In this document: positions 14,547 through 47,583 of the stretch, piece by piece
Layout: each line of letters opens with the position of its first letter
Position numbering within the stretch: position 1 is the first letter of the stretch
Assembly: GCA_947259495.1 (NCBI GenBank)
Contig: CAMYLV010000008.1
Span: 1 to 64,000 of the forward strand
Direction of reading: 5' to 3'
DNA length: 64,000 nucleotides
Source of the DNA: an uncultured Desulfobacterales bacterium
GTDB lineage: Bacteria; Desulfobacterota; Desulfobacteria; Desulfobacterales; JAHEIW01
Notes under the pieces: model-generated
Told to the model about the DNA's origin: nothing
Database searches by the model: none
Seen by the model: only the letters and a program-made list of their open reading frames with translations
Translations under genes and position numbers: made by a program

Positions 14547-14569
14547 ACAGTAGCTGACCTGCATTATGA

Positions 14570-17622: not shown

Positions 17623-18957
17623 ATGATAGTTGAGGTAAAGGTCCCCAGCGTGGGCGAATCCGTAACTGAGGCCTTGCTGGCCCAGTGGTTCAAAAACGAC
17701 GGCGATACGGTAAACAAAGACGAACCGCTATTTGTAATCGAAACCGACAAAGTTACGCTGGAGGTTGTCTCCGAGGCCGCGGGCGTGCTCGCCGTTAAGG
17801 TTCAGGAAGGCGAAACGGTTGCCATCGGCACTGTGGTCGGCACCATTGATACAGCGGCTGCGCCGAAACCCGCCGAACCGCCTCCGACACCTGAAGCACC
17901 TGAAATAAAAGAGACGCAACCGCCGGCCGCAACGCGCGAGGAACCGCAGGAGCCGGCCCCGGAAACGCCCCCACCACCGACCCCGGAACCGCCGCCGCCG
18001 CAACCCGAATCCGCTCCGGCGCGACCGTCGCTTGACCTGGATGACCTGGCGCCGTCTGTACGCCGGCTGATTGCTGAAAAAAACCTGGATCCGGCCCAAA
18101 TTACCGGTACCGGCCCAGCCGGTCGCATCACCAAAGGAGACGTTGTCCTGTTTCTGGAAGGATTGCGACCGCCGGTGCCGGCCTCAGGCGATGAACCGGT
18201 TCAAAAATCCGTCCAGGCTCCGCCGCAGCCGTCAGCCGCAACGCCAAAGGCCGGCGAAGAAGGAACTACGCGCAAGCCGATGAGCCCGATCCGGCAGCGC
18301 ATTGCCTCTCATTTGCTCGCTGCCAAGCAAAAAACGGCCATGCTGACCACCTTTAACGATATCGATATGACACGGGTGCTGGCGCTCCGTGCTCAGTACA
18401 AAGAAAGTTTTAAGGAAAAATATGGCATCTCGCTGGGCATGATGTCGTTTTTTATCAAAGCCTGTGTGGAGGCCCTCAAGGAATTTCCGGAAGTCAATGC
18501 CTATATCGATGATAAGGACATTCTCTACCATCATTATTATCATATCGGTGTTGCCATCGGCTCGGAGAAGGGATTGGTGGTTCCCGTCATCCGTCGTGCC
18601 GATCAGCTCAACTTCGCCGAACTGGAACAGGCCATCGTCGATTTTGTCAACAAAATCAAAGAAAATCGACTGGAACTGGCGGATTTAGAAGGCGGAACGT
18701 TTACCATCAGTAACGGTGGCGTTTTCGGTTCGCTGCTGAGCACACCGATATTAAATATGCCTCAGAGCGGCATTCTGGGGATGCACCGCATCGAAAAGCG
18801 GCCCGTGGTGATCGAGGACCAGATTGTTATTCGGCCCATGATGTATGTTGCCCTCAGTTACGATCACCGTATCATTGATGGTCGTGAAGCCGTCACCTTT
18901 CTCAAGCGCATCAAAGAATGTATCGAGAACCCGGAACGCATGATGATGGAGATTTAA
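17623..18957 (+). CDS. sucB: Dihydrolipoyllysine succinyltransferase E2
   Basis: Core E2 of the 2-oxoglutarate dehydrogenase complex; transfers succinyl from lipoyl-lysine to CoA. Domain order: one lipoyl domain (1-78, lipoylated K43 in '[10 protein letters not shown]'), a Pro/Glu-rich mobile linker (about 83-140), the E3-binding domain ('[12 protein letters not shown]', '[13 protein letters not shown]', about 143-182), a second linker, and the catalytic domain (about 215-444). The catalytic His/Asp motif '[12 protein letters not shown]' is at about 413-424. The ATG at 17623 has AAGGAG upstream. lpdA starts two bases after its stop, so the two are translationally linked. Confidence 0.94.
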
Positions 18958-18959
18958 TT

Positions 18960-23854: not shown

Positions 23855-25096
23855 ATGAAAAAAGTTCTCATTTTAGGATCAGGAGCCGGCGGAACGATGG
23901 TGGCCAGCCAATTGCGCAGGAAGTTAAGCCCCAAAGAGTGGCAGATTACCATCATCGACAATGATGAAATCCACCACTACCAGCCGGGATGGCTGTTTAT
24001 TCCATACGGTGTCTATTCCGCGGAAGATTGTCAAAAACCCAAGCGGGAATTCATCCCCGAGGGCGTTGACTTTGTTCTGGATGAGGTCGTCGGACTCGAT
24101 ACGGATAAACGCGAGGTCAAAGCAAAAAAGGGGTCATATGACTATGATTGGCTCGTTATCGCCACCGGATGCGGCATCGAACCTGAAGAAGTCGAAGGCA
24201 TGATGGATGACTGGCGCAAAAATACTCATGATTTTTACACGCTGGACGGCGCCCTGGCCCTGCACGAAAAAATGAAATACTTCAACAAAGGGCGCGTGGT
24301 GCTTAACATCGCCGAGCTGCCGTACAAATGCCCGGTGGCCCCGATTGAGTTTGTTTTTATGGCCGACTGGTTTTTTGAGACCAAAGGCGCCCGCAATGAC
24401 GTTGAAATTGAACTGGTCACCCCCATGGCCGGCGCATTTTCAAAGCCGATAGCCTCCAGCATCCTGGGCGACATTGCCATCCAAAAGAACATTAAAGTTA
24501 CCCCGAACTTTGATATCGCCCAGGTCAACGCCGATGAAAAAACAATTGAATCGCATAAGGGCGAAAAGGTGGACTACGATTTGCTGGTGGCGATTCCGCC
24601 CAATTTTGGTGCCAAATTTCTGGAAGGCTCCGGCCTAGAGGATCCGCTGCGATTCATCGACACCGACCATTTCACGCTCAAAGCCAAAAATGCTGACCAT
24701 ATTTACGTCGTCGGTGATGCCACCAACGTACCGGCTTCCAAGGCCGGCGCCGTGGCCCATTATGAATCCGAAACGGTGGTGGAAAATTTAATCCGCGAAA
24801 TCGATGGTCAGGAACCGCACGGCACCTTTGACGGCCATGCCACCTGCTTTATCTGCTCGGGCCATGAAAAAGCGTTTCTGATCGATTTTAACTACGAATA
24901 TGAGCCGCTGCCCGGTAAATTTCCCTTTCCGGGCCTCGGTCCTTTCAGCCTGCTGGGCGACAGCTATATGAATTACTGGGGCAAAATGATGTTCAAGTGG
25001 GTCTACTGGAACATGATGCTCAAGGGTGTTGAATTGCCCCTGGAACAACAAATGACGATGGCCGGTAAAATGCGCCACGTCATGACCCAAGCATAA
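23855..25096 (+). CDS. Sulfide:quinone oxidoreductase-like flavoprotein
   Basis: FAD-dependent pyridine-nucleotide-disulfide family member of the SQR/flavocytochrome-c sulfide dehydrogenase type, 413 aa. FAD fold 'ILGSGAGGTMVASQL' at 6-20; redox cysteine candidates C106 ('ATGCGIEP') and C159 ('PYKCPVAPIE'), with a further 'ATCFICSG' near 338; FAD-contacting 'VVGDATNVPASKAGAVAHYE' near 287-306. The C-terminal ~70 residues include amphipathic stretches suited to monotopic membrane binding, and there is no signal peptide. It would oxidise sulfide or a related thiol and reduce a quinone. AGGAGG precedes the ATG. A DUF1641 gene follows by ten bases, a pairing known for SQR-like proteins. Confidence 0.85.
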   Translation: MKKVLILGSGAGGTMVASQLRRKLSPKEWQITIIDNDEIHHYQPGWLFIPYGVYSAEDCQKPKREFIPEGVDFVLDEVVGLDTDKREVKAKKGSYDYDWLVIATGCGIEPEEVEGMMDDWRKNTHDFYTLDGALALHEKMKYFNKGRVVLNIAELPYKCPVAPIEFVFMADWFFETKGARNDVEIELVTPMAGAFSKPIASSILGDIAIQKNIKVTPNFDIAQVNADEKTIESHKGEKVDYDLLVAIPPNFGAKFLEGSGLEDPLRFIDTDHFTLKAKNADHIYVVGDATNVPASKAGAVAHYESETVVENLIREIDGQEPHGTFDGHATCFICSGHEKAFLIDFNYEYEPLPGKFPFPGLGPFSLLGDSYMNYWGKMMFKWVYWNMMLKGVELPLEQQMTMAGKMRHVMTQA

Positions 25097-25106
25097 GGAG
25101 GCCGCC

Positions 25107-25799
25107 ATGACAACCGAAGAACAAATTCTTGAGCGACTCGATCGCATCGAGGCTCAGCTGGCTCCGGTATCTGCCTCGGCCAGGGGTCTCAACGAACTCA
25201 GAGAAGATTTAATTCCCTTGAGCGGGCAGGCATTTCGACTGCTGATCCGGGAGCTGGAGGATGTGGAGTCCGGTTTCCAGCTGGAAGACTTGCTGGCGCT
25301 GATGAAACGCTCGCTGCGCAGCGTCAAGCACATGCAGTTTGCCATGGAGCAGATGGAAAACGTAGTGGACTTTATACTCACCATTGAGCCCCTGCTCAAG
25401 TCATCGGTGCCGCAGCTGATAAACTACCTGGATGACCTCGAGCAAAAAGGCATCCTGCGAATTATTCAATCAACACTTGATGTACGTGCCAAAATCGCAG
25501 CGGCTTACAGTCCCGAAGATGTCGATCAGATCGGTGATGGCCTGGTGGCGCTGCTGGGGCTGGCCCAGAAATTAGGCGATCCGAAGGCCCAGGCCTTTTT
25601 GGAAAAAATGGCCGCACTGCCGTCAAAAGTGGATCTGGAGAAAGCCAAACCGGTGGGACCATTTGGAATGCTGGGAGCCCTTTCCAGCAAGGAGGCCCGC
25701 CAGGGGCTGGGCGTATTGATGGAATTAACCAAGGCCATGGGCGATCTGAAAAATGGCGGCAGCAGCACAGCACTTCAAGAGTCAGAACCGATCGCTTAA
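25107..25799 (+). CDS. DUF1641 protein, SQR partner
   Basis: A 230-residue, mostly helical protein matching DUF1641: 'EQILERLDRIEAQLAPV' at the N-terminus and 'GILRIIQSTLDVRAKI', 'PFGMLGALSSKEARQGLGVL', 'LMELTKAMGDL' in the middle and C-terminal parts. The last segment, around residue 185-205, is the moderately hydrophobic helix typical of the family. It has no enzyme motif. It is co-transcribed with the SQR-like gene (ten-base gap, AAGGAGG at the start) and is probably its membrane or assembly partner. A terminator-like hairpin follows the stop. Confidence 0.82.
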   Translation: MTTEEQILERLDRIEAQLAPVSASARGLNELREDLIPLSGQAFRLLIRELEDVESGFQLEDLLALMKRSLRSVKHMQFAMEQMENVVDFILTIEPLLKSSVPQLINYLDDLEQKGILRIIQSTLDVRAKIAAAYSPEDVDQIGDGLVALLGLAQKLGDPKAQAFLEKMAALPSKVDLEKAKPVGPFGMLGALSSKEARQGLGVLMELTKAMGDLKNGGSSTALQESEPIA

Positions 25800-25805
25800 A
25801 CGCGA

Positions 25806-25856
25806 AAATGAGCCGGGTGCCGCTTGCGATATTCAGCCCGCAAGCGGCTCATTTCG
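25806..25856 (+). terminator. Terminator after SQR-DUF1641 operon
   Basis: GCCGCTTGCG (25819-25828) pairs perfectly with CGCAAGCGGC (25839-25848) around a ten-base loop, flanked by AAATGA/TCATTT. The U-run after it is weak. Confidence 0.65.
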
Positions 25857-25909
25857 AAAAAATGGTGTGTTATAATGTGGGCTGTTGCCTTTTTTCAATC
25901 GTTTTGGCA

Positions 25910-26008
25910 TATAGTGGCTGTTAAAAAAACGTTGCCGTATTCAAACGTTTTTTCTACAACCACTTATACCGCAATTCCGTAAGTCAGATCAATGTGATGG
26001 AAAGCGGT
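25910..26008 (-). repeat. Two-hairpin interspersed repeat, copy 2
   Basis: Same orientation as copy 1. Outer stem GTGG-C-TGT / ACA-A-CCAC differs from copies 1 and 5 by paired changes; inner stem AAAAAACGTT / AAACGTTTTTT is kept; the second hairpin is partly altered. It ends GGAAAGCGGT. Confidence 0.8.
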
Positions 26009-26071
26009 GAAAAAGGCAAAAAAATAATTGGCTTTGGGCCTATAGCGGTAGAAATTTGCTGGAGAACGCAC

Positions 26072-26512
26072 ATGCAAAAACAGATGGTTCAATGTGAGGA
26101 CGGGCGCCGCCGACAGGCGCGCATCCACGGGGTTCCAATAGAAGAAGGCGGGTTCAGGATATGGAAAGCCGGTGTTCGGTTAAAGGGCAAGCACGTGTCC
26201 GGAGAAGCCTGGTACAGTCATCAAACCAAAACCTGGTATTTTATCAGCGATCCGGAGAGCAAACACAGCCATTTGATGGATCGCATCGGTGATACCCTCC
26301 GGGAAGAAAAGCTCAGAAATTTGCGCGATCAATTAAAACAGCTGGTATCGCGACAAAGCATCACGCAAAAAAAGATTGCCGAACATCGCAAGGCCCTGGC
26401 AGATATCGAAAGCCAGCTGGAAATCATCAAAAAGGATATCGTCCGGACCGAAAAAGGGATACCTTTGGAATCCGGCACACCGCTGCAGTATTCACAGGGG
26501 ATCAGAAAATGA
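26072..26512 (+). CDS. Hypothetical protein with C-terminal coiled coil, 146 aa
   Basis: Unrecognised. The ATG at 26072 has GGAGA seven bases upstream; an upstream frame to 25994 runs through the end of the two-hairpin repeat and was rejected. The N-terminal ~60 residues are basic with a small beta-rich look ('RRRQARIHGVPIEEGGFRIW', 'GEAWYSHQTKTWYFISD'). From about residue 72 it is a helical coiled coil ('LRNLRDQLKQLVSRQ', 'KIAEHRKALADIESQLEII'). No signal peptide or transmembrane segment. It is isolated: the following gene is on the other strand. Confidence 0.6.
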   Translation: MQKQMVQCEDGRRRQARIHGVPIEEGGFRIWKAGVRLKGKHVSGEAWYSHQTKTWYFISDPESKHSHLMDRIGDTLREEKLRNLRDQLKQLVSRQSITQKKIAEHRKALADIESQLEIIKKDIVRTEKGIPLESGTPLQYSQGIRK

Positions 26513-27716: not shown

Positions 27717-28805
27717 ATGGCCCCGAAAAAGAAACGCCCTGAAAATCAGCCTTCAATTCCCACTGCTATTCCGGGGCTGAACCTCAAACATCTGGTCGAC
27801 TATCTACCCTGCTACGTATCCATTCAAGACCGCGACCTCAACCTTCTTTATGTCAACCAAAAATTCAAAAAAGATTTTGGCGACGGCACCGGTAAAAAAT
27901 GTCACGCGGTTTATAAATGCTCAACTGAGATATGCCCGAACTGTCCCGTTCAAAAGACCTTCGAGGACAGACGCGCACATCTTACCGAGGAGAATGTGAC
28001 GCTAACCGGCGGCGGGGTTCATCAAGTTCTCATTCAAACATCGCCCGTTATCGATAAAAACGGTGTGGTCACCGCTGTTATCGAATTGGCCACCAACATC
28101 ACGCAGCTAAAAAAAGATCGCAAGGAACTGGTCACCCTGGGTCAATCCATCGCTCTGTTATCCCACGGCATTAAGAATATACTGGAAGGACTGCAGGGCG
28201 GTGCCTATATCGTTGATGAAGGATTTAAAGACAACGATATCGAACTGGCCCTAAAAGGCTGGAATATCGTCAATAAAAATATTTTCGATATCGCCGATGT
28301 GGTTCAAAATATTTTATATTCATCAAAAGACCGTCCGCTGAAATACGAGCGCATATCGCCCGGACAGCTGGCCCGGGATTCATTGGCCTTGTTCCGCGAA
28401 AAAGCCGCCCGGCTGAATGTAGAGCTTAAACCGCAGATCAATGAAACCGTCCCCGAGGTTCGCCTGGATATCGCCAGCATCCGCCGAATGTTAAACAACC
28501 TCATCTGGAATGCACTGGAAGCATGTCTGAATCACCCCGGGGAAAAGAAACATTTTGTCCGTGTCAAAACAGATTTGCTGGATGATGAACATTTTATTTT
28601 CGAAATCGCAGATAATGGTGTCGGTATGGACCAGGATACCCAGCGCAATATCTATGAAGAGTTTTTTTCAACCAAAGGCAGTTCAGGAACCGGGCTCGGA
28701 TTGGCGGTGGTGGAAAAAGTCGTCAACCGCCACGGCGGGAAGATTGAGGTAACATCGGCGCCGGGAAAAGGCACAACATTTAAACTTATTTTTAAGATAA
28801 AGTGA
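27717..28805 (+). CDS. Soluble PAS-domain sensor histidine kinase
   Basis: A 362-residue cytoplasmic kinase. N-terminal PAS domain (about 22-130) with four clustered cysteines (C62, C68, C73, C76; 'CSTEICPNC'), possibly a metal or redox site. The phospho-acceptor is H150 in 'LLSHGIKNILEG'. ATPase motifs: N-box 'NNLIWNALEAC', 'DNGVGMD', 'GTGLGLAVV', 'GKGTTF'. No transmembrane segment, so the signal is internal. The H-box context 'HGIKNIL-GL-GG-Y-VD' is shared with the receiver-PAS kinase at 41.7-43.2 kb, so the two are paralogous. A receiver gene follows 120 bases downstream and is the probable partner. Confidence 0.88.
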   Translation: MAPKKKRPENQPSIPTAIPGLNLKHLVDYLPCYVSIQDRDLNLLYVNQKFKKDFGDGTGKKCHAVYKCSTEICPNCPVQKTFEDRRAHLTEENVTLTGGGVHQVLIQTSPVIDKNGVVTAVIELATNITQLKKDRKELVTLGQSIALLSHGIKNILEGLQGGAYIVDEGFKDNDIELALKGWNIVNKNIFDIADVVQNILYSSKDRPLKYERISPGQLARDSLALFREKAARLNVELKPQINETVPEVRLDIASIRRMLNNLIWNALEACLNHPGEKKHFVRVKTDLLDDEHFIFEIADNGVGMDQDTQRNIYEEFFSTKGSSGTGLGLAVVEKVVNRHGGKIEVTSAPGKGTTFKLIFKIK

Positions 28806-28927: not shown

Positions 28928-29404
28928 ATGGGGAAAAACCTCAAAATCGTTCTGGTCGATGACAACACGGACTTCCTTTTTACCATGGAAACCTTTCTTC
29001 AACGAAATGGTTTTGAGGTGCACACGGCTGAAGATGGACAAAAGGGAATCGATATAATCAAAAAGGAGCAACCCGATCTTATTTTGCTGGATATCATGAT
29101 GGAGACCCTGTTCTCCGGTTTTGAAGTCTGCAAGCAAGTCCGATCTGATGATGATCTGAAGGCTATTCCTATCATCGGTATTTCCGCCATGGGTGATGAA
29201 CTGGACATCAACTACAGCCAGTGGCCCGACTATGAGTATTTCCGGCCCGACATGTTTTTAGAAAAACCGGTTGACAAACAGCGACTGCTGCAGCTGATCC
29301 CGGAAGTGATCCAGAAGGCGCACAAACGCATGCGCAGCCCCAAGTGGAAAAAGGAAATGGATAAAGATTGGGCTCAAAAAGCATCTCAAAAGCAGCGGCC
29401 CTGA
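28928..29404 (+). CDS. Single-domain response regulator (CheY-like)
   Basis: Receiver domain with acidic pair D11/D12, phospho-acceptor D55 in 'LILLDIMMETLFSG', and conserved Lys near 114 ('LEKPVDK'). After D55 it has a short insertion ('ETLFSG') compared with the standard MP-x-MDG loop. The C-terminal ~35 residues are basic ('AHKRMRSPKWKKEMDK') and carry no recognisable output domain. AAAGGAG precedes the ATG at 28928. It is probably the partner of the preceding PAS kinase. Confidence 0.88.
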   Translation: MGKNLKIVLVDDNTDFLFTMETFLQRNGFEVHTAEDGQKGIDIIKKEQPDLILLDIMMETLFSGFEVCKQVRSDDDLKAIPIIGISAMGDELDINYSQWPDYEYFRPDMFLEKPVDKQRLLQLIPEVIQKAHKRMRSPKWKKEMDKDWAQKASQKQRP

Positions 29405-29617: not shown

Positions 29618-31354
29618 ATGTTCGATTATCTCTTCTACACCTCCCTCGTCGTTTTCCTCCTGGGTTTGATCTATAAGATTTCTACCTGGTTTACGCGGAA
29701 AATCGGCATCCTGGGAAAAGACATAACGACTGCGCAACGCTTGCAGTCGGCAGTCAGAGGCATCGCAGGTGTCATTTTCAGCTCAAAGATCCTTGCACTC
29801 CTCGAGGCTGTGGTGCTGGATGTCCTGCTGCAACGCCGCGTTTTAAAAGAAAGTCTTTCCCGCTGGCTGGCGCACATGCTTATATTTTACGGTTTCATGC
29901 TGCTGCTGCTCATGCATGCCCTGGAATCGGTGGTATCGGAAGCGTTATTCAGCGAGTATTATTCCACTGTAAATCCGTTTTTCTTTCTGCGGGATTTTTT
30001 CGGCGCCATGGTGCTGGCCGGCGTGATCCTGGCCGCGGTTCGCCGATACCTTGCTCAGCCCCGGCGGCTTCGCACCGGCGGCATGGATCATTACGCCATC
30101 ATGATCGTGGCGGTTATTATGCTGTCCGGAATCGCTCTGGAAGGCCTTAAAATCGCCTCCCACAGCGAATTTACACGGATGGTCGAAGATTACGCCGGCC
30201 TGGATGATGAAGATGAAATCAAGGCCCTCGAGACGCTCTGGGTAAAAGAATACGGCACCGTCTCGCCCACCATCGAAGCACCTTTTGACGCCGAGCTGCT
30301 GGAGACCGGCCGTGAGGTTCACGAAAGCAGCTGCATGGACTGCCATGCGGATGCCCCCTGGGCGTTTACCGGTTTTGCCACAGCCAAGCTCATCAAACCG
30401 CTGGCCTTATGGCTGGATGAACGCAACGGCGTCACCCTGTTGTGGTACGTGCATATTATCGCCTGCTTCCTCGGGCTGGGCTATCTGCCCTTCAGCAAGA
30501 TGTTTCACCTGATTGCCACCCCCATCAGCCTGATGACCAGCCGGGTCATGGGTCTGGCCGAATCGCTGCCGGCCAACGTTGTGACGCGCCAGATCATGGA
30601 GCTGGACGCCTGCACCCACTGCGGAAGTTGCAGCCTGAATTGCTCTGCGGCCATGGTGTTTGAGGCCGTCGGCAACGAATACATTCTACCTTCTGAAAAA
30701 ATGACGCTGCTCAAGCGGCTGGCCACCGGCAAGAAAATAGATGATGCGCAGATGCGCGCCATTCAGGAGGGTGTCTACCTGTGCACCAATTGCGACCGCT
30801 GCACGGTGCGCTGCCCGTCCGGTATCCGGTTAAAGGAATTGTGGTACAGCGTGCGTGAAGCGTTATTGGCAGACGGTCCGCCGCTGCCCCTTGTGTTGAG
30901 CCCCTTTTCTTTTGCCAGGGGGTTGATCGTGCAAAAAACGCTTACAGCCGACAGTTACACCGCTCCGGTTGCAAGGGCCCGGCAGGTGGTATCCGGCCAG
31001 TTTGTCAATTTGATGAATCCAGAAACATCCATCCCGCTTAATGCGCAGACAGGCGCAGAAATGCAGCCGACCGCAAAGGATAGCACCTACACCCATTGCT
31101 TCAGCTGTCAGAGCTGCACAACAGTGTGTCCGGTGGTCGCCAACTATGATGACCCCGAGCAGGTGCTCGGACTGCTGCCACATCAAATCATGTGCAGCCT
31201 GGGTCTGGGATTAAGCGAAATGGCCTCCGGTGCCGGCATGATCTGGGATTGTTTGACCTGCTACAAATGCCAGGAAAACTGCCCGCAACAGGTCGAGGTG
31301 TGTGATATTTTATACCGCTTAAAAAATACCGCCGTAGCATCCATCGAGCACTAA
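29618..31354 (+). CDS. Cytochrome b / CxxCH / HdrC-like iron-sulfur fusion protein
   Basis: A 578-residue membrane electron-transfer protein. Domain order: about five transmembrane helices resembling NarI/DsrM-type cytochrome b (5-22, 87-105, 127-145, 157-178, 275-297) with candidate heme His; a single c-type heme motif 'CMDCH' at 239-243 between helices four and five; then four CxxCxxCxxxC clusters in two pairs: C332-342, C389-399, C494-504, C545-555. The last pair is HdrC-like. hdrB and hdrA homologues follow, so this would connect Hdr-like thiol/FeS chemistry to the quinone pool or periplasm. Having both pairs plus CxxCH in one chain is unusual. The distance to hdrB is 230 bases and includes a palindromic tract. 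Confidence 0.85.
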   Translation: MFDYLFYTSLVVFLLGLIYKISTWFTRKIGILGKDITTAQRLQSAVRGIAGVIFSSKILALLEAVVLDVLLQRRVLKESLSRWLAHMLIFYGFMLLLLMHALESVVSEALFSEYYSTVNPFFFLRDFFGAMVLAGVILAAVRRYLAQPRRLRTGGMDHYAIMIVAVIMLSGIALEGLKIASHSEFTRMVEDYAGLDDEDEIKALETLWVKEYGTVSPTIEAPFDAELLETGREVHESSCMDCHADAPWAFTGFATAKLIKPLALWLDERNGVTLLWYVHIIACFLGLGYLPFSKMFHLIATPISLMTSRVMGLAESLPANVVTRQIMELDACTHCGSCSLNCSAAMVFEAVGNEYILPSEKMTLLKRLATGKKIDDAQMRAIQEGVYLCTNCDRCTVRCPSGIRLKELWYSVREALLADGPPLPLVLSPFSFARGLIVQKTLTADSYTAPVARARQVVSGQFVNLMNPETSIPLNAQTGAEMQPTAKDSTYTHCFSCQSCTTVCPVVANYDDPEQVLGLLPHQIMCSLGLGLSEMASGAGMIWDCLTCYKCQENCPQQVEVCDILYRLKNTAVASIEH

Positions 31355-31422
31355 GGCTCGATGGATAGTTATTCGTTATCCGTTATTGGTTAATCGGAAA
31401 AAAGTTTGATTTGTAAAGCTTC

Positions 31423-31509
31423 TTTAATCACGAAAACACGAAATTGGAAAAGCACGAAATTTTCTTCTAACTTTTCGCGTTTTCATTCATTCGTGCTTTC
31501 GCGATTGAA
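31423..31509. repeat. Imperfect palindromic tract, ATCACGAA type
   Basis: Left AATCACGAAAACACGAAATT against right ATTCGTGCTTTCGCGATTGA. It separates the cytochrome b/HdrC gene from hdrB. Confidence 0.65.
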
Positions 31510-31583
31510 TTTTTTTGTAGAATTTCTCTTTATAACGGGAATTCCGCGGTGCTTAAACCGGATCGCTCTGATTAGGAAAAAAT

Positions 31584-32459
31584 ATGAAATTTGCGTTATT
31601 CCATGGCTGCAACATTCCCGCACGCGTTGAGCAATACGCCGATGCCACCGCAGCGGTGTGTGCCCGGCTGGGCATCGAGCTGGTTGAGATGACCGCCTTC
31701 AACTGCTGCGGGTATCCGGCGCGCAACACAGACCATCGTGCCTATGTCCTGTCGGCCGCCAAAAACCTGGCGGTGGCTGAACAGTCCGGCCTGGATATGC
31801 TGGTGATGTGCAAGTGTTGTTACGGCAGCTTAAAAAAAGCGGAATATTTTTTAAACCAGGACCCGGAGTTGACAGCTGACATCAACCACATCCTGGCCCG
31901 GGAAAACCTGGGGTATGGGAATAAGACCCGTGTCAAACATCTGCTGTCGGTCCTTTATCATGATGTGGGCCTTGAGCGTTTAAAGGATGAGATTTCAAAA
32001 GCATACAGCGGCCTTCAAATAGCGGTCAGCTACGGGTGCCATGCCTTGCGGCCCAGCAACGTAACAGCATTTGACGATCCGGTTTCACCGAAAATCTTTG
32101 ATGAACTGGTGGAAACCACCGGCGCCTTCAGTGTGGCGTGGACCCGCAAACTGGATTGCTGCGGTGCGCCTCTGACCGGCATCAATGATCAGCTGGCAAT
32201 GGATATGGCCCAAAAAAAGATTGACAGTGCCCGGGAAGCAGGCGCCCAATTTATCTGCACCGCCTGCCCCTATACCCAGCTTCAGTTCGACGGGGTGCAA
32301 ATGCGGTTGAACGCACAATCGAATGACGGTAAACCTCTGGCGCCCATATTGTATCCGCAGTTGCTGGGATTAAGCATGGGCATCGATGAAAAAACCCTGG
32401 GCATTTCTAAAAATGAAATTGACCTATCCGAAATCACATCATTTCTAATGGCGGAGTAA
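31584..32459 (+). CDS. hdrB: Heterodisulfide reductase subunit B-like protein
   Basis: A 291-residue HdrB homologue with two CCG domains that hold the non-cubane [4Fe-4S] clusters for disulfide reduction. First set: C9, C41/C42 ('NCCGYP'), C76 with C78/C79. Second set: C152 ('SYGCHALRP'), C192/C193 ('DCCGAP'), C225 and C228 ('CTACPY'). In methanogens HdrB reduces CoM-S-S-CoB; in sulfate reducers the substrate is unknown, with thiol/disulfide or DsrC-like proteins proposed. AGGAA lies upstream of the ATG. hdrA begins two bases after the stop. Confidence 0.9.
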
Positions 32460-32461
32460 TT

Positions 32462-35400
32462 ATGTCGCAAACAGTTACAGGCGCAGTCATGGTGGTAGGC
32501 GGCGGAATTTCCGGCATGCAAGCCGCTTTGGATCTTGCCGATTCCGGTTATTATGTCTACCTGGTGGAAGGCTCGAGCTCCATCGGCGGCATGATGTCGC
32601 AGCTGGACAAAACCTTTCCCACCAATGACTGTGCGATGTGAATTATATCGCCGAAACTGGTCGAGGTCGGCCGGCACATCAACATCGAACTGCTGACGCT
32701 TACCGAAGTGCAGGGCATTAGCGGTGAAGAGGGTAATTTTGAAGTCCAATTAACCCAAAACCCGCGCTATGTCGACATGGACAAGTGTATTGCCTGCAAT
32801 GCCTGTGCGGAAAAATGCCCCAAGAAAGTATCCAATGCCTATGACGGCGGCCTGAGCAAACGCAAGGCGGTTTACGTGCAGTACGCCCAGGCGGTTCCGC
32901 TCAAATACACGATCGATGCCGACACCTGTATTTATTTTCTGAAAGGCAAATGCAAAGCCTGTGAAAAATTTTGCCCCACCGGCGCCATCAACTTCGAAGA
33001 TCAAAAAACGGACATCACCCTGAATGTGGGCGCGGTAGTTTTAGCTACCGGCAGCGAGGCCTTTGATCCGAGCGCTTACGACACCTTCGGCTATGCAACA
33101 TCACCCAACATTGTCACCAGCCTGGAGTTTGAAAGAATTCTGTCGGCCTCCGGACCCTACGGCGGGCACCTGGTGCGGCCTTCGGATAAGACCGAGCCTG
33201 ACAAAATTGCCTGGCTGCAATGCGTGGGGTCCCGGGATACCCACATCGGCGCCCGCGGATACTGTTCGGCCGTCTGCTGCACCTACGCCGTCAAAGAGGC
33301 CATTTTAGCCAAAGAGCACAGCAGCAACGGTTTGGATACGGCCATCTTTTATATCGACATTCGCACCTTCGGCAAAGACTTTGAACGCTACTATAACAAG
33401 GCCAAAGACGAGTTGGGCGTCCGTTTTGTCAAATCGCGCATCACCCATGTCGAACCCATGAACGAAAACGGCAAGCACCTTATTCGTTACGTCGATGCGG
33501 CCGGCCATAGCCGGGCCGAAGAATTTGATATCGTGGTGCTGTCTGTGGGCTTGGGAGCCCATGAAAAGGCCGTTTCCCTGGCTAAAAAGCTGGACGTCGA
33601 TCTGAACGCTTATAATTTTGCCAAATCCGGCGGATTTGATCCGGTTCAGAGCTCGCGACCCGGCATCTATGTTTGCGGCGCCTTCCACGAACCGCAAGAT
33701 ATCCCCACCTCGGTCATCGATGCCAGTGCCGCTGCCGGAAAAGTCGGGACCCGGCTCGCAGATGCCCGCGGGACCCTGACGAAAACCAAAGAGCTGCCTG
33801 AAGAGATCGATATCAAAGGCGAGCCCCCGCGCATCGGTGTTTTTGTCTGCTGCTGCGGCACCAATATCGCCGGATTTGTGGATGTTCCGGCGGTGGTGAA
33901 ATATGCCAAAACTCTGCCGAATGTGGTCTATGCCGAGCAAAATCTGTTTAGCTGCTCGCAGGATACCCAGACCCAGATTTCAGCAACTATCAAAGAGCAC
34001 CGTCTCAACCGGGTTGTAGTGACCGCCTGTACGCCCAAGACCCATGAGCCTCTTTTTCAGGAAACGCTGATTAACGGTGGCTTGAACAAATACCTTTTTG
34101 AGATGGCCAATATTCGAAACCAGTGCTCCTGGGTGCACAAAGACAATATGGACAAGGCCACCGAAAAATCCAAAGACCTGCTGCAAATGGCGGTGGCCAA
34201 AGTGGCACTGCATGAACCCCTGATGGAACCCAGGATGAAAATCAACCAGGCCGCTCTGGTTATCGGCGGTGGTGTGGCCGGTCTGACCGCCGCCAGAACA
34301 TTGGCCGCTCAGGGATATAAAACCGTGGTGGTTGAAAAAGACAAGCAGCTGGGCGGCCAGGCCCGCAACCTGGTTGAAACCTGGCGGGCAGAGCCGGTTG
34401 GTCCGTTTCTGGATGCTTTGATTGCCGACGTCACGGCCGATGAAAACATCGAGATATGGTTAAACGCCAGGGTTGAAAATGTTGAAGGATTTATCGGAAA
34501 TTTTAAAACCACCATCCTGAGCGATGCTGAATGCAAGGTCGTAGAACACGGCGTAACCCTGATTGCTTCAGGTGCCGCAGAGTTTAAATCCGATGATTAT
34601 CTGTACGGCCAGGATCAGCGGGTGCTCACCGGCCTGGAGCTTCAGAAAAAAATTCAGGATGGCGAAGGATTTGATGCCTGCCGCACAGCTGTATTTGTCC
34701 AGTGTGTGGGATCGCGCATCCCCGAGCGTCCCTACTGTTCGAAAGTTTGCTGTACCGGGTCGATTAAAAGCGCCTTGAGCCTCAAAGCCCGAAATCCCGC
34801 CATGGACATTTTTATATTGTACCGGGATCTGCGCGCTTACGGTCTGAGGGAGGATCTTTACCGCGAAGCACGCGAGCAAGGCATCAAATTCATCCGTTAT
34901 GACAACGAAAATGAAATCGGGGTGGGTTCAGCCGAAGATGGCCTGAACATTGCCTTTACGGATCGCGTGCTCAGAAGGCAAATGGCCATCGACAGTGATC
35001 TATTGGTTCTGGCCAGTGCGGTGGTGCCGCAAAAAGCCAACCCCCTGGCGCAGATGTTCAAGGTCTCGCAAAATGATGACGGTTTTTTTGCCGAGGCGCA
35101 CGTCAAGCTGCGGCCCAATGATTTTGCCACCGACGGCGTGTTTGTTTGCGGTCTGGCGCATGCGCCCAAACCCATCGAAGAATCCATTGCCCAGGCGCAG
35201 GCGGCTGCCTCCCGGGCAGTGACGGTTTTATCGGCCCTGGAGATTTCGGCCAGCGGCACGGTGGCCCAGGTGGATCCGAACTGCTGCAGCAGCTGCGGGG
35301 TTTGCGTTTCGATTTGTCCCTATTCAGCGCCGCAATTCATTGAAAACACCGGCAAGGCCGAAATTCAAGCCACACTGTGCAAGGGCTGCGGGCTGTGTGT

Positions 35401-35515
35401 GGCCTCCTGCCGCTCAGGGGCCATTCACCTGAAAGGCTTCGACACCGGTCAGATTATGGCCCAGCTCAAAACGTGCTTGTTTGATCATGCGCCGGCTGAA
35501 TCTACTTTCAGCTGA
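32462..35515 (+). CDS. hdrA: Heterodisulfide reductase subunit A-like selenoprotein
   Basis: A 1017-residue FAD/FeS HdrA homologue whose codon 60 is TGA (32639-32641), read as selenocysteine. Evidence: the frame continues in both directions as good HdrA sequence. Before it: '[19 protein letters not shown]' and 'FPTNDCAM'; after it: '[12 protein letters not shown]'. In HdrA this motif is NDCAMC-x-SPK-LVE, with Cys at the TGA position. Further domains: ferredoxin pairs near 100-175 ('[12 protein letters not shown]', 'CKACEKFCP'), HdrA '[11 protein letters not shown]' near 460, a second FAD fold '[16 protein letters not shown]' near 595, and a C-terminal ferredoxin pair near 940-985. A stem-loop follows the TGA at the expected SECIS distance. 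An ATG at 32708 would give a truncated protein and was rejected. hdrB lies directly upstream. Confidence 0.92.
32651..32670 (+). promoter_or_regulatory. SECIS-like stem-loop of hdrA
   Basis: CCGA ... TCGG closing stem around a GGTC-containing apical loop, starting ten bases after the TGA at 32639-32641. Position and loop resemble bacterial SECIS elements, which recruit SelB. Pairing was judged by eye. Confidence 0.6.
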
Positions 35516-35550
35516 TTACACCTTTAGGCGGGTGTCTTCTTCTTTCATTT

Positions 35551-35711
35551 TGGTTTCAGGTGTCAGTTTTCAGAAGACAGCGGTCAGACGACAGAAGACA
35601 GATGGAAAAATTGGAAGATGAAGCGACCTCTCTGTCCTCTGTTTGCTGTTATCTGTCATCTGTTTGCTGACACCTGACACCAATAATATGTAACTCGAAA
35701 CCTGAAACCTT
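35551..35711. repeat. CAGACGACAG-type palindromic tract, copy 2
   Basis: Contains GTCAGACGACAGAAGACAGA in a 22-base block (35582-35603) identical to one at 48573-48594, and mirrored words CTCTGTCCTCTG and ATCTGTCATCTG. It separates hdrA from the FrhB-like gene. Confidence 0.7.
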
Positions 35712-35753
35712 AGTAAAAAGCAGATAGTCAAACAAATTTGAACAGGTGAACGA

Positions 35754-36875
35754 ATGAAAACCTTTACCAACTTAATTGAAGATGTGCAAAAACCGGGGCT
35801 TTGTCATCGCTGCGGCGGGTGCGTGACTTTCTGCACGGCCATTAACTACGGCGCCCTGGAGCTGGATGGCGAAGGCAAGCCCCGCTATGCCGATGAAGCC
35901 AAATGCATCGAGTGCGGCCTGTGCCATACCATCTGTCCCGAAATCGACGAGCTGGATGCGGAAACCCGCAAAAGTTCGGGCTGGACACCGCCCATCGGGC
36001 GGGTTATTGAAACCAGCATTGCCCGGGCCACGGATCCCAATATCCGTAAAAAAGCCACCGACGGCGGCGTGGTGACCGCCCTGCTGGTGCACCTTTTTAA
36101 ACGCGGCCGTATTGACGGCGCCATTGTCACCAAACCGGCCGGCCCGTTTCAACGTCTGCCGTTTCTGGCTGAATCAGAAAAAGACATTCTCGACGCCGCC
36201 GGCTTTTCCTTTGACACCTCGCACGGCATGACCAGCTTCAGCGATTACTATTTAACCTATTCACAGATCAAAGAATTTGATCCCCTGATCAAAAAAGGAT
36301 TGCAGCGCGTGGCCTTTGTGGGCACCCCCTGTCAAATCAAGGCGGTCCGCAGAATGCAAGCCCTGGGCATCATCCCCTCTGATTCAATTAAATTCTGCCT
36401 GGGGCTGTTTTGCTCGGGAAATTTTGTGTTCGGCAAAAAAGAGCAGGATAAAATCGGCCAGATCGGCGGATTTAAATTTAAAGACGTTAAAAAGATAAAC
36501 ATCAAAGAGGAGCTGATCGTCCATCTGAAAGGCGGGGAAGAAAAAACCATGATGCTCGATGAACTCGAGTTCATGAAACGCTTCGCATGCTACTTCTGCC
36601 CGGATTATTCGGCCGAGTACGCCGACATTTCCTTTGGCGGCATCGGCTCCGAGGAGGGCTGGACCACCGTTATTACCCGCACACCCGTCGGCCGGGCGAT
36701 CTTTGCCGACGCCAGACCTAAAGCCATCGAGGAAAACCGCACCGAAAACTTTTCCAAAATGACGTCCCGGGCGCTTAAAAAGGTGCAGACCTGGTCGGCC
36801 CGTAAAAAAGACGTGGCCGCTCAAAACCGCAAAGTGCTGGACCGCAAATTCCCCGGCATCAAGAAGGATTCTTAA
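35754..36875 (+). CDS. FrhB/FdhB-like iron-sulfur flavoprotein
   Basis: Coenzyme F420 hydrogenase/dehydrogenase beta-subunit family, 373 aa. Two [4Fe-4S] ferredoxin motifs at C17/C20/C23/C27 and C51/C54/C57/C61, then the FrhB N- and C-domains with 'ATDGGVVTALLVHL', 'VAFVGTPCQIKAVRRM' and 'RFACYFCPDYSAEYADISFGG'. Family members hold FAD and pass electrons between ferredoxin/FeS partners and F420, formate dehydrogenase or unknown acceptors. Downstream of hdrA it may be an electron-input or output subunit of the same module. AGGTGA precedes the ATG. It is 240 bases from hdrA because of the repeat tract. Confidence 0.88.
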   Translation: MKTFTNLIEDVQKPGLCHRCGGCVTFCTAINYGALELDGEGKPRYADEAKCIECGLCHTICPEIDELDAETRKSSGWTPPIGRVIETSIARATDPNIRKKATDGGVVTALLVHLFKRGRIDGAIVTKPAGPFQRLPFLAESEKDILDAAGFSFDTSHGMTSFSDYYLTYSQIKEFDPLIKKGLQRVAFVGTPCQIKAVRRMQALGIIPSDSIKFCLGLFCSGNFVFGKKEQDKIGQIGGFKFKDVKKINIKEELIVHLKGGEEKTMMLDELEFMKRFACYFCPDYSAEYADISFGGIGSEEGWTTVITRTPVGRAIFADARPKAIEENRTENFSKMTSRALKKVQTWSARKKDVAAQNRKVLDRKFPGIKKDS

Positions 36876-37041: not shown

Positions 37042-37500
37042 ATGTCGACAGAGCGCGGCATCGTTGAAAAAGTCGAGCCGGGATGGGCCTGGGTAAAAAC
37101 CAAACGCTCCAGCGCCTGTTCCAGCTGCGGCAGCCGTCATCATTGCCTGACCCAGGGCAGTGACCAGATGGTGGTCAAGGCGCAAAATACGGCTAAGGCC
37201 AAAAAGGGCGATGAAGTTGAGCTGCATTTGAGCACCAAGGCAAAACTCAAAGGCACCGCGATTATGTATCTAATTCCTGTTTTGGGAATTATGGTCGGTG
37301 CTTTTTCAGCCAATCCACTTTCAAAAGCTCTCGGCTTGAATCCATCACTGGGAATGGCCGTGTTTACGTTAACCGGACTGGTTTCAGCCGTTTTTCTGAT
37401 GCGCCATCTGGCAAACCGCATGGATTCCAAACAGGCGCTGACGCCACTGGTAAAACGGGTGGTCTTCAGCGCCCGATCAACGCCAAGCAAGAGGATTTAA
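37042..37500 (+). CDS. rseC: RseC/SoxR-reducing-system family membrane protein
   Basis: A 152-residue protein of the RseC/MucC family. It opens 'GIVEKVEPGWAWVKTKRSSAC', followed by Cys cluster C26, C29, C35 ('CSSCGSRHHC'), then two transmembrane helices (about 72-90 and 105-122) and a basic tail. In other bacteria RseC homologues act with Rnf/Rsx in reducing SoxR or in sigma-E control, and elsewhere occur with ApbE/Rnf genes; here it is next to a multicopper oxidase with a four-base gap. AAGGTGA lies upstream of the ATG. Confidence 0.8.
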   Translation: MSTERGIVEKVEPGWAWVKTKRSSACSSCGSRHHCLTQGSDQMVVKAQNTAKAKKGDEVELHLSTKAKLKGTAIMYLIPVLGIMVGAFSANPLSKALGLNPSLGMAVFTLTGLVSAVFLMRHLANRMDSKQALTPLVKRVVFSARSTPSKRI

Positions 37501-37504
37501 AAAT

Positions 37505-39034
37505 ATGATCAATCGACGTCAATTTCTATATCTGACCGGTGCAGGTGCCGTAAACTTCTTAAATATGAATGGATGGCCACTGGCAAAAGCCGCAATGGCA
37601 TCGTCGGAAAAAAACGATTTTTTTCCCGACGTAGAACTATCTCTGACGGCCACGCCATCTGAGGTACAAATTTTTGCGGGCCAACCCACAACCGTGTGGC
37701 AATACACCGGGCAGGTGATCAAAGGGGATCCCACCAACCTGATGCATCTGGATCAATCTTACTTAGGTCCCATCATTCGCGTTCGCCGGCACCAGAAAGT
37801 TCGAATTCATTTTGAAAATAACCTGCCGGCCAGAAGCATCATTCACTGGCATGGCCTGCATGTGCCGGCCAGGATGGATGGTCATCCCATGTATGTCATT
37901 TCCACGGGAGAAACGTTTACATATGATTTTGAAGTTTTAAATCGCGCTGGTACCTACTGGTATCACCCCCATCCGCATGGCCGCACCGGGCATCAGGTTT
38001 ACGGCGGCCTGGCGGGGCTATTTCTGGTTTCAGATGATGAAGAAGACAAACTAGACTTGCCCTCTGCAAAGCTGGACATACCCCTGGTCATCCAGGATCG
38101 CGCTTTTAATCCCGATAACCAGCTGGTATACCTGCCGCGGGGGATGCACGACAGCATGAACGGCATGCTGGGCGACAGCATCTGTGTGAACGGCAGGCCC
38201 GACTTTAAACTCTCAGTCAGTACCAGAGCCTATCGCTTGCGCATTTTAAACGGTTCCAACTCACGTATCTACAAACTCGCCTGGAGTGACAGCACGCCAT
38301 TGACCGTCATTGCAACCGATGGCGGTCTGCTGGAAAAACCGATCGAGAAAAAATATGTCGTCCTGGGCCCGGCCGAGCGCATCGAGCTGTGGGCGGATTT
38401 CAGCAAATACCCGATCGGAACATCTTTGGAGCTGGTCAGCAAGTATTTTGAAGCCGCCATGCTGGAGGGTGATATGGGGCCGCGCCGGGGGATGAGGGGC
38501 GGTATCCGGCTGCCCAACGGGGCGCCCTTTAGCGTTTTCAAAATCGATGTGGCCGGCAAGGCAAAAGAAACCCGGCTGCTTCCGGATAAGCTGTCTGCTA
38601 TCGAACGCTATCAGCCGCAGGACGCCGATAACTCTGATAACCCGCGGCGGTTTTCTTTTTTTATGCGACACATGCAGGGCCTCATAAACGGCCGCACGTT
38701 TCGCATGCAGGAAGTCGCCGATGATGAAAGGCTCCGGCTCAATTCGACCGAACTGTGGGAGCTTGCCAACGATAATCGTTCAATGGGGATGATGATGATG
38801 CCCATGCCCCATCCGGTGCACCTGCACGGCAAGCAGTTTCAGGTCATTGAACGCAGCGGAACGCTTCACAGCGGGTATGTGGATGAGGGCTGGAAAGACA
38901 CGGTTTTGCTGATGCCCGGCGAACGCGCAAAGATTGTCGTTAATTTTACAGATTACCCGGGGATGTTTTTATATCATTGCCACAATCTGGAGCATGAAGA
39001 CATGGGAATGATGCGCAACTATCTGGTTTCCTAA
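37505..39034 (+). CDS. Tat-exported multicopper oxidase
   Basis: A 509-residue three-domain multicopper oxidase of the CueO/bilirubin-oxidase/spore-coat type. It starts with a Tat signal ('NRRQFLYLTGAGAV'). All copper-ligand motifs are present: 'HWHG' (H114, H116), 'HPHPHG' (154-158), 'HPVHLHG' (H436, H439, H441) and 'YHCHNLEHEDMGMM' (H491, C492, H493, H497, axial M502). It should oxidise a periplasmic substrate and reduce oxygen to water; Cu(I), Mn(II) or phenolics are candidates. Met-rich 'SMGMMMMPMP' before the third motif hints at Cu(I). An oxygen-using enzyme in an otherwise anaerobic gene set suggests oxygen or copper tolerance. Confidence 0.9.
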   Translation: MINRRQFLYLTGAGAVNFLNMNGWPLAKAAMASSEKNDFFPDVELSLTATPSEVQIFAGQPTTVWQYTGQVIKGDPTNLMHLDQSYLGPIIRVRRHQKVRIHFENNLPARSIIHWHGLHVPARMDGHPMYVISTGETFTYDFEVLNRAGTYWYHPHPHGRTGHQVYGGLAGLFLVSDDEEDKLDLPSAKLDIPLVIQDRAFNPDNQLVYLPRGMHDSMNGMLGDSICVNGRPDFKLSVSTRAYRLRILNGSNSRIYKLAWSDSTPLTVIATDGGLLEKPIEKKYVVLGPAERIELWADFSKYPIGTSLELVSKYFEAAMLEGDMGPRRGMRGGIRLPNGAPFSVFKIDVAGKAKETRLLPDKLSAIERYQPQDADNSDNPRRFSFFMRHMQGLINGRTFRMQEVADDERLRLNSTELWELANDNRSMGMMMMPMPHPVHLHGKQFQVIERSGTLHSGYVDEGWKDTVLLMPGERAKIVVNFTDYPGMFLYHCHNLEHEDMGMMRNYLVS

Positions 39035-45928: not shown

Positions 45929-47494
45929 TTAAAAGAACACGAACGATACGAAAACAAAGGTTGGAATCAGAAATATCAGCGAGTATTTTAAAATATAGCC
46001 GAAAAAACTCGGCATCGGCGTTCCGGCCTCTTCGGAAATCGAACGCACCATAAAGTTGGGCGCATTGCCGATATAGCTGCAGGCACCAAAAAAGACCGCG
46101 GCGGCGGAAATGGCTTTTAAATATATTGCATTTTCGGTCATCAGCAGCGGAACCGCCTGGGCTTCCGAAGCCCCGGAATAAAATGCGCCCAGGGCGCTGT
46201 TAAAAAAAGTAAGATAAGTCGGCGCATTGTCGAGAAAGCTCGACAGCCCCCCGGTTACCCAAAAATAATGCACGGGCTGCGTAACGCCGTTTACTAAAAA
46301 GGCCAGGGCACCGTGGGATCCGGCTTTTAAAATCAGCAAACACGGGATCATGGTGATAAATATGCCGATAAACAAATATGCCACTTCGATAATGGGAAAC
46401 CAGGTAAAGTCATTATCATCCCGTAATTGAATAGGCGTTGCTACCAGAGATAGAATTCCCATTAAAATTAGTAAGCCATCCCGAGCCCAGTCTTGAATAG
46501 ACCTGTGAACGCCAAATGTATTGACCTCGCCCCAGTCCACGATTCCGCTCATCAAAACGGCGCCCACAATACCGGCTAAAAATAAAAAATTGTACACACC
46601 CTCAAGTTTCAGAGGCGCTTTGGCACCTTCTTCTTCGGGGGCGGATACCCCTTCTTTACGATAGTGGTAGGTGTCAAGTATAAAATAGATCACCAGCAAA
46701 ATGATGACAACCAGCAGCATGTGGGGCAGAATGTTAAACGTCCAGAAAAAGGAGACGCCGTGCAAAAAACCCAAGAAGAGCGGGGGATCCCCGAGCGGCG
46801 TCAGAGAGCCGCCGACATTGGCAACCAGAAATATGAAAAATACCACCATAAAGGTGCGGTTTTTACGAAAATTGTTGGCCCGCAGAAATGGACGGATCAG
46901 CAGCATGGCGGCACCGGTGGTCCCCATCCAGGAAGCCAGCAAGGTGCCAATGATCAGCATACTTAAATTGACAAGCGGGGTCCCGCGCAAGGTCCCGCGC
47001 AACAAAATGCCGCCGGAAACCGTATATAACGACCACAGCAAAATAATAAAGGGAACATAATCGGCCAGAATGATATGCAGAATCTCATACAGCGCCGCCC
47101 CTTTAAATGCGATCAGAAAAGGTATGGCCAGTGTTGCGGCCCAGAATCCGGATATTTTCCCGAAATGATGATGCCAAAAATCCGGCAAAATAAGCGGGAA
47201 AAGCGCAATGGACAGCAAAATGCAGGCAAAGGGGATACAGCTCCACAGGGGCAAAAATTCACCGATGTTTTCATGCCCCTCCCCATGGTGTGCGTCGGCT
47301 TTTTGATGGGATGCTGAAGTGTTGTGAGGGTCTTGTTGGGCTGCCGGGCTGTCGACGTGTTCGGAAGGCTGGGCGTTTGCTGGTTCCGCATGTTCGGGTT
47401 GAGAGGCGGTGGCCACACCAGCAATGAGTATTAAAATGAAAATAACTGTAAGGAGGATTTGAAAAACAGCCGTCTTATCTCTCAGGATTTTCAT
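45929..47494 (-). CDS. NhaD-type sodium:proton antiporter
   Basis: A 521-residue ion-transporter-superfamily membrane protein with about 12-13 helices. An N-terminal hydrophobic/signal-like segment (10-30) is followed by a His/Gln-rich extracellular stretch (about 33-75; 'HQKADAHHGEGHEN'), then helices. 'GTTGAAMLLIRPFLRAN', 'NVGGSLTPLGDPPLFLGFL', 'LSSFLDNAPTYLTFF' and 'GNAPNFMVRSI' are typical of NhaD/ArsB/citrate-transporter-type re-entrant regions. It heads the minus-strand signalling operon. Sodium-proton exchange is the most likely role; dicarboxylate transport is less likely. Confidence 0.85.
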   Translation of the reverse strand: MKILRDKTAVFQILLTVIFILILIAGVATASQPEHAEPANAQPSEHVDSPAAQQDPHNTSASHQKADAHHGEGHENIGEFLPLWSCIPFACILLSIALFPLILPDFWHHHFGKISGFWAATLAIPFLIAFKGAALYEILHIILADYVPFIILLWSLYTVSGGILLRGTLRGTPLVNLSMLIIGTLLASWMGTTGAAMLLIRPFLRANNFRKNRTFMVVFFIFLVANVGGSLTPLGDPPLFLGFLHGVSFFWTFNILPHMLLVVIILLVIYFILDTYHYRKEGVSAPEEEGAKAPLKLEGVYNFLFLAGIVGAVLMSGIVDWGEVNTFGVHRSIQDWARDGLLILMGILSLVATPIQLRDDNDFTWFPIIEVAYLFIGIFITMIPCLLILKAGSHGALAFLVNGVTQPVHYFWVTGGLSSFLDNAPTYLTFFNSALGAFYSGASEAQAVPLLMTENAIYLKAISAAAVFFGACSYIGNAPNFMVRSISEEAGTPMPSFFGYILKYSLIFLIPTFVFVSFVFF

Positions 47495-47583
47495 CTAAAC
47501 CTTCCCCCCGCTGTCAAAGTCACGATCCTTACGTCATATGAAAAGGACCGTTTTACGTTATCAAAGTCTGCCAGGTTTATAAA

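Follow-up and report, generated by a model that had tools for sequence, protein, structure and literature searches.

In Desulfobacterium autotrophicum HRM2, the HdrF1-F3 proteins are described as joining a membrane segment to HdrC and HdrB homology; HdrF1 is made of two genes, and HdrF lies beside GlpAB or EtfBA, the proposed electron source (PMC2702500). The mycobacterial EtfD is described as a five-helix cytochrome b with two cubane clusters and CCG domains that serves as a wire to menaquinone (PMC13083937). By description, both are close in kind to the first two gene products of a locus found in a stretch of 64,000 nucleotides (hereafter the window) from an uncultured Desulfobacterales bacterium (contig CAMYLV010000008.1, positions 1 to 64,000). 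The locus occupies positions 29618-36875 and is composed of four genes on the plus strand, which encode a NarI-like cytochrome b fused to a CxxCH motif and an HdrC-like ferredoxin domain (hereafter FUS), HdrB, HdrA and an FrhB-like flavoprotein.

The locus is interpreted as encoding a putative membrane-bound HdrABC-type menaquinone oxidoreductase in which HdrB is mainly a wire and heme c an accessory; taken as one joint claim, this is given just short of an even chance. The gene order, the single CxxCH, the four [4Fe-4S] motifs, the selenocysteine-containing HdrA with two flavin adenine dinucleotide (FAD) domains and the FrhB-like protein were all proposed by a first-pass annotation of the DNA and are confirmed by open reading frames (ORFs), Pfam and alignments. 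Its suggestion of a membrane-linked Hdr module, probably tied to the quinone pool, is likewise supported. A search for the same four-gene order, which that annotation had called for, located it in relatives at 50-92% identity, and this recurrence argues that the arrangement is not due to chance.

The fusion protein and its HdrB partner

FUS carries its cytochrome b in the N-terminal part and its iron-sulfur part in the C-terminal part. The positions of His86/His100 and His279/His297, along with hydropathy and charge, fit a five-helix NarI plan, and the histidines are spaced as in NarI. The loop between transmembrane helices 4 and 5 (TM4-TM5) is acidic (7 Lys and Arg, 20 Asp and Glu) and contains CMDCH at residues 239-243; from this and the topology signals, heme c is expected on the periplasmic side and the four [4Fe-4S] clusters on the cytoplasmic side. 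An alignment of 17 FUS rows, window included, shows the 16 cluster cysteines, the CxxCH residues, His279 and His297 to be invariant, and His86 and His100 to be conserved in at least 90%. The Fer4 dicluster domains score above the Pfam cut-off. The NarI gamma match is weak for the window protein (E 0.0041, 17.2 bits vs a cut-off of 22.9), and all 17 members match that model at E<=1, the best at 8.8e-9. The top Foldseek hit of the FUS model (predicted local distance difference test 66.5, with too low a confidence in the iron-sulfur half) was EtfD (E 3e-5, TM-scores 0.36/0.29); most other rows had E >0.05 and were disregarded, except for HdrC and NarI.

Neighbourhoods were compared at 120 loci, or 114 after the removal of six duplicates (L040, L041, L042, L043, L054 and L058), which do not enter the HdrB, CxxCH, HdrA-motif or partner counts. 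The tree has 109 rows, since L056, L082 and L166 (fragments) and L044 and L057 (<400 amino acids) were also left out. The CxxCH motif is found in 111 of the 114 FUS loci, and two of the three exceptions are fragments. In L079 and the later-found L210 the heme-c loop is deleted while the b-heme histidines and cluster motifs are retained, so the path through the b hemes appears to be the core and heme c an added port. Judged by these alignments, the family can do without heme c, which appears to be an accessory port kept by most members. This refines the first-pass annotation, in which the heme may accept electrons from the membrane or give them to it. Seven FUS proteins (L055, L170, L171, L180, L183, L185 and L194) contain a second CxxCH string, CTNCH or CTDCH, at a [4Fe-4S] motif site, which is probably not a heme site.

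Among the 105 loci that extend at least 900 bp rightwards, 101 have HdrB adjoining FUS, the exceptions being L069, L152, L153 and L166. What follows on the same strand varies: among 79 loci that reach 5.6 kb rightwards, the downstream partners include HdrA (57), MvhD (28), Flx-like genes (19), FrhB (8) and MetV (4). The pair occurs with HdrA and FrhB, as in the window, with HdrA, MvhD and Flx, with HdrA, MvhD and MetVF, with GlpAB, with Wood-Ljungdahl genes, or with no partner seen. The arrangements comprise GlpA-GlpB-FUS (L053 and L078), GlpB-FUS-HdrB (L196), FUS-HdrB-MetV-MetF (L057), FUS-HdrB behind AcsC- and AcsE-like genes (L180, L185 and L193), NuoE/NuoF-like genes 3' of FUS-HdrB (L180, L193 and L194) and the pair alone in the Desulfobacter records L047-L052. 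The AcsC of L193 is above its family cut-off and the L193 methyltransferase is below. MetF, MetV, FlpD and the NAD-binding FlxA-like protein were assigned by Pfam from one representative each, and the Glp, Nuo, FlxB and FlxC names are provisional, in part given by eye. This near-constant pair with its changing partners behaves like an adapter or dock. The four-gene module of the first-pass annotation is real, and on this comparison the conserved unit is the FUS/HdrB pair, with the FrhB version being one of several.

The clade of the window (ten rows; 99 in the Shimodaira-Hasegawa-like approximate likelihood ratio test) shows the order histidine kinase, response regulator, FUS, HdrB, HdrA and FrhB wherever the contig is long enough and intact. 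Its sister, L133, has the kinase, the regulator, FUS and an HdrB that retains Cys234, and L169 has the same order as the clade at 50-66% identity and branches elsewhere. FUS matches at E<=1e-60 were found in 180 of the 389 genomes sampled from the order and 54 of 395 genomes of the phylum, some of the latter spanning just half the protein, and most sequence relatives are labelled Desulfobacterales or Deltaproteobacteria. Spread by plasmids was considered and rejected, as 72,556 plasmid records gave no FUS match at E 1e-40.

The window HdrB matches TIGR03288 (E 6.3e-71, 239 bits), below the cut-off of 345.15, and aligns with 5odc_B across 282 of 291 residues. Ten ligands of the non-cubane clusters were compared in 103 HdrB proteins, and eight are always Cys wherever the sequence reaches. 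The two that vary are the cysteines that, in Hdr, are described as bridging to the catalytic irons and being displaced by ligand (PMC13083937). Cys81 is replaced by Gly in 12 proteins and Cys234 by Thr in 12 and Ser in 5; both are never lost together, and 73 of the 103 proteins retain both. The window HdrB keeps nine of the ten ligands, with Thr231 at the position of Cys234, and its clade has Thr or Ser there. A second HdrB of the same genome, from an ordinary HdrC-HdrB-HdrA set on contig 20, has all ten. This selective loss provides a sequence signature that may tell which members still perform disulfide chemistry.

Loss of Cys234 requires three changes on the FUS tree and is seen in none of the 29 MvhD-bearing rows and in 10 of the 47 that lack MvhD, and each of the 12 loci with Gly81 has MvhD, MetV or Acs genes as neighbours; neither set of counts is independent. 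Strict coupling of the loss to FrhB was rejected: of 65 rows scored for both traits, seven combine loss with FrhB, three have the loss alone, two have FrhB alone and 53 have neither, and L210, found later, is a third FrhB locus that retains Cys234. Two of the seven (L172 and L176) have a divergent FrhB on the opposite strand. An independent-pairs test gave one pair for, none against and four without difference, which is too few pairs.

HdrA and the FrhB-like flavoprotein

The apparent ORF start of HdrA at 32708 is an artefact caused by the in-frame TGA. At the corresponding motif, 52 of 71 HdrA proteins, window included, read NDCAMU or NDCALU with TGA, eight have Cys and 11 lack the motif or that region. 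The window genome also has selB above cut-off, and thus both the TGA at the Cys/Sec site and the SelB expected of a selenoprotein are found. A selenocysteine insertion sequence hairpin downstream of the TGA was rejected, as the candidate was not better than shuffled sequences. The domain order is the core, the N-terminal domain, the second FAD domain and a C-terminal ferredoxin domain. Alignment with 5odc_A shows that the inserted ferredoxin domain is present within the FAD domain, with a five-residue insertion near the second cluster. The HdrA2 model gives 945.5 bits vs a cut-off of 1100. Flavin bifurcation by this HdrA is plausible from its domains. Three other loci have a short DNA-binding-like domain either fused to HdrA or placed before it, recognised by eye from HRNTVTNW or HRNTITNW (L207:11057-14401, L209:1447-4767 and L208:1215-1664).

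Both the N and C domains of FrhB_FdhB are above the Pfam cut-off in the fourth protein. Its closest matches, 8rja_E and 8riu_B, come from F420-reducing formylmethanofuran and CO dehydrogenase complexes described from ethane-oxidising archaea (PMC11493965). A model search found no CofE match in the genome that holds the window. CofD was above cut-off in none of 58 genomes, with weak sub-cut-off matches in 11 including that one; CofG/H were not searched for. With these two F420-biosynthesis markers missing, F420 was set aside as an unlikely partner, and the partner is probably another one. FrhB homologues are preceded by HdrA in L210, by a C-terminal piece of HdrA in L205 and by HdrA-MvhD in L207, L208 and L209, and L206 has MvhD-FrhB. 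This placement beside HdrA makes FrhB look like the flavin port of HdrA.

Proposed function and alternatives

If the four proteins form a complex with its predicted cofactors loaded, FUS would be embedded in the membrane through five helices and carry two b hemes, the periplasmic c heme and the four cytoplasmic [4Fe-4S] clusters, replacing the soluble HdrC. HdrB would bridge FUS and HdrA and act chiefly as an electron wire; the change of Cys234 to Thr would have disabled or altered its disulfide chemistry. A hydride pair, supplied or relayed by the FrhB-like flavoprotein and probably not originating from F420H2, would be taken up and split by HdrA. One electron would reach ferredoxin by way of the inserted ferredoxin domain; the other would go through HdrB and FUS to menaquinone. 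The direction could instead be the reverse, as a confurcating quinone reductase. The complex would be an Hdr-based counterpart of EtfABCX. The potential of menaquinone is about -75 mV, that of NADH -320 mV and that of ferredoxin near -450 mV, which makes ferredoxin/menaquinone splitting feasible. The inserted ferredoxin domain retained by HdrA, and EtfD, a wire from ETF to menaquinone, as the closest solved fold, albeit at low TM-scores, argue for the oxidoreductase. The near-constant FUS-HdrB pair with its exchangeable partners, the NarI-like histidines and loop charges, the restriction of HdrB ligand variation to the bridging cysteines, the complete set in the contig 20 HdrB and the dispensable heme-c loop weigh the same way. 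The Sporomusa MetVF with HdrCBA-MvhD, described as membrane-associated and active from methyltetrahydrofolate (methyl-THF) to anthraquinone-2,6-disulfonate (AQDS), is also counted in its favour (PMC9430772).

Several observations weigh against this interpretation. EtfD is a precedent in principle and not at the same position, since it is described as having become non-catalytic through other residues: one cluster gains His583 as a further ligand, and in the other Thr539 takes the place of another cysteine (PMC13083937). Neighbouring cysteines might compensate for Cys234, as position 80 is Cys in 103 of 103 HdrB proteins and position 228 in 80 of 103, window included. L184, L195 and L210 have FrhB yet retain Cys234, and L045, L123 and L174 have lost it without an adjacent FrhB. 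The first two of these three loci are disrupted. L045, a single-contig relative (8001-12138), has an HdrA that ends at about residue 470 with FUS and HdrB retained, and no FrhB was found in its genome (G005). The genome of L123 (G058) encodes HdrA residues 1-524 at L123:8660-10231 and residues 781-1016 with FrhB at L205:5506-7503, about 0.5 Mb apart, through either rearrangement or misassembly, and that of L174 carries an unlinked FrhB. Retention of the c heme throughout most of the family suggests a periplasmic partner in most members. Finally, gaps of 229 and 238 bp and a strong hairpin at the FUS stop codon mean that the genes may not all be co-transcribed.

That periplasmic partner is the centre of an unlikely alternative, a quinone-free, Tmc-like route from c-type cytochromes fed by H2 or formate through heme c and the b hemes to HdrB/HdrA and on to ferredoxin or the FrhB partner. 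The near-universal CxxCH would fit, as would a host that has dsrA and is therefore probably a sulfate reducer. L079 and L210 lack the entire heme-c loop with the remainder intact, however, and the window protein would rely on a single heme, and none of the scanned neighbours is a cytochrome c gene.

Rather improbable for the window is a membrane-bound reductase of disulfides, such as the DsrC trisulfide, similar to DsrMK or TmcBC and supplied by menaquinol or cytochrome c. HdrB does have CCG domains, and Hdr-like complexes of sulfate reducers have been proposed to act on DsrC (PMC10553843). Such a role may well apply to other members, given how many retain both bridging cysteines. In the window clade the Thr or Ser at position 234 argues against it, and HdrA and FrhB would be superfluous. 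Because of the Thr in the window HdrB, of the cytoplasmic thiol/disulfide or ferredoxin reaction put forward in the first-pass annotation, the thiol/disulfide part has become less likely.

A port role for FrhB, serving an unlinked enzyme such as a cytoplasmic [NiFe] hydrogenase, with H2 as the true donor, is very doubtful: FrhB homologues of 52-64% identity do lie beside MvhD and hydrogenase-like genes (a VhuG-like small subunit in L184, 221.5 bits against a cut-off of 450; by eye, both the small and the large subunit in L206 and L207, plus a large subunit in L208), but the scanned neighbours of the window locus include no hydrogenase gene, a group 3 hydrogenase elsewhere in the genome not having been searched for, and FrhB follows HdrA in L210 with no hydrogenase seen in that stretch.

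The oxidoreductase interpretation can be extended, tentatively and with less confidence, to a modular family of membrane-embedded bifurcating or confurcating Hdr quinone reductases. Its dock would take front ends for NADH, methyl-THF, H2, glycerol-3-phosphate or the FrhB substrate, and its HdrB would be drifting towards a non-catalytic wire. The MetVF form would then be the missing membrane link that carries methyl-THF electrons to menaquinone in sulfate reducers with a reverse Wood-Ljungdahl pathway. The methyl-THF/methylene-THF couple is given as -200 mV (PMC9430772), from which methyl-THF could reduce menaquinone directly. In acetogens the link between HdrABC/MTHFR and quinone is open, with a hypothetical Q-cycle protein drawn with a question mark (PMC9430772), and MTHFR is described as membrane-associated but not membrane-integral (PMC6895022). 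The FUS family, with matches in close to half of the genomes sampled from the order, is a concrete candidate for the membrane subunit of that link.

Locus layout and comparison with described systems

The features of the locus are listed in Table 1.

Table 1. Positions of the genes, motifs and flanking features of the locus in the window.
Feature	Coordinates	Strand	Basis or remark
Conserved divergent ORF, 115 amino acids	26731..27078	-	Same cluster adjoins locus in relatives
PAS histidine kinase	27717..28805	+	Pfam; probable regulator
Response regulator, receiver domain alone detected	28928..29404	+	Pfam; conserved neighbour
FUS, NarI-like cytochrome b, CxxCH and HdrC-like four-cluster ferredoxin domain, 578 amino acids	29618..31354	+	
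CMDCH heme-c motif, TM4-TM5 loop of FUS	30332..30346	+	Motif in 111/114 loci
Strong hairpin spanning FUS stop codon; possible terminator or attenuator	31339..31366	+	
HdrB, two CCG domains	31584..32459	+	TIGR03288 match; 5odc_B alignment
Thr codon ACC, HdrB residue 231, at archaeal bridging Cys234 position	32274..32276	+	
HdrA, two FAD domains, selenocysteine	32462..35515	+	
In-frame TGA, Sec60 in NDCAMU of HdrA	32639..32641	+	
FrhB-like flavoprotein with N-terminal ferredoxin-type Fer4 domain	35754..36875	+	

HdrA starts 2 bp past the end of HdrB. The region has 17 terminator-like sites vs 14.6 expected, and the scan as a whole is not significant. For the divergent ORF, the homologue in L043, rather than the window ORF, matches HPr-kinase-N weakly above the Pfam cut-off and DRTGG slightly below. 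Further upstream (23855-26512) are a Pyr_redox_2 protein, which its context marks as sulfide:quinone-reductase-like, and a DUF1641 protein, together with an ORF that has no family assignment, all kept upstream in the close relatives L040, L044, L058 and L063. Directly 3' of FrhB (37042-39034) are an RseC-like protein and a CueO-like multicopper oxidase, which were not found after FrhB in L043, L044, L054 or L063. Elsewhere the window encodes tricarboxylic acid cycle genes at 6592-20387 and 45929-53760 (aconitase, 2-oxoglutarate dehydrogenase E1, E2, an E3-like protein, a citrate transporter and citrate synthase), at 55882 a member of the Prismane/CO-dehydrogenase family, and a group II intron D1-D4-2 match above the Rfam threshold (59136-59237, minus strand). 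The host genome is 4.4 Mb and 97% complete, and has a cdhC-type acetyl-CoA synthase subunit and several further HdrA homologues.

Among the NCBIfam matches listed, no model reaches its cut-off for FUS, HdrB or HdrA, and no Dsr model appears for FUS. The top match of FUS is QmoC (68 bits vs 300), and TmcB (22.1 of 735 bits) and HmcF (27.5 of 750 bits) are similarly distant, in agreement with the first-pass view that the locus is distinct from QmoABC and TmcABCD; the same holds for Hmc. QmoABC combines HdrA-like flavoproteins with a fusion of HdrC and cytochrome b, whose domain order in QmoC is the reverse of that in FUS, as the cytochrome part, N-terminal in FUS, aligns to positions 188-320 of the 360 in QmoC. 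In FlxABCD-HdrABC the HdrC is soluble; Flx-like genes follow FUS-HdrB-HdrA in the 19 of 79 loci counted above, and in the window FrhB stands where MvhD and Flx would be. The window HdrB and HdrA differ from CoB-CoM HdrABC in falling below the equivalog cut-offs, and HdrB lacks the full set of ten cysteines.

HdrABC has been proposed to link methylene-THF reductase to the membrane or quinone in Sporomusa (MetVF-HdrCBA-MvhD) and Thermacetogenium (MTHFR). The association described there is loose or non-integral, whereas in the window the HdrC part itself has the cytochrome b (PMC9430772, PMC6895022). In HotSeep-1, HdrA adjoins a protein, proposed as a cytochrome c oxidoreductase, that differs from the window in having heme c and a CCG domain on one chain, a comparison made by description and not by sequence (PMC10553843). 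Searches of an open-licence library yielded no description of a c-heme fusion with HdrB/HdrA, and mention in reviews is possible.

HdrF and EtfD, the nearest named relatives, were missing from the comparisons of the first-pass annotation. The FUS-HdrB architecture fits HdrF as a split form, compared by description rather than sequence; the text on HdrF describes no heme c and a GlpAB or EtfBA context in place of HdrA or FrhB (PMC2702500). EtfD is described as one chain to which the CCG domains are fused, with a single b heme and no heme c; its partner is ETF and there is no HdrA (PMC13083937). The neighbours scanned around the window locus include no ETF. HdrF, reported in 2009 with a proposed function only, and EtfD are the systems nearest in kind to the module of the window.

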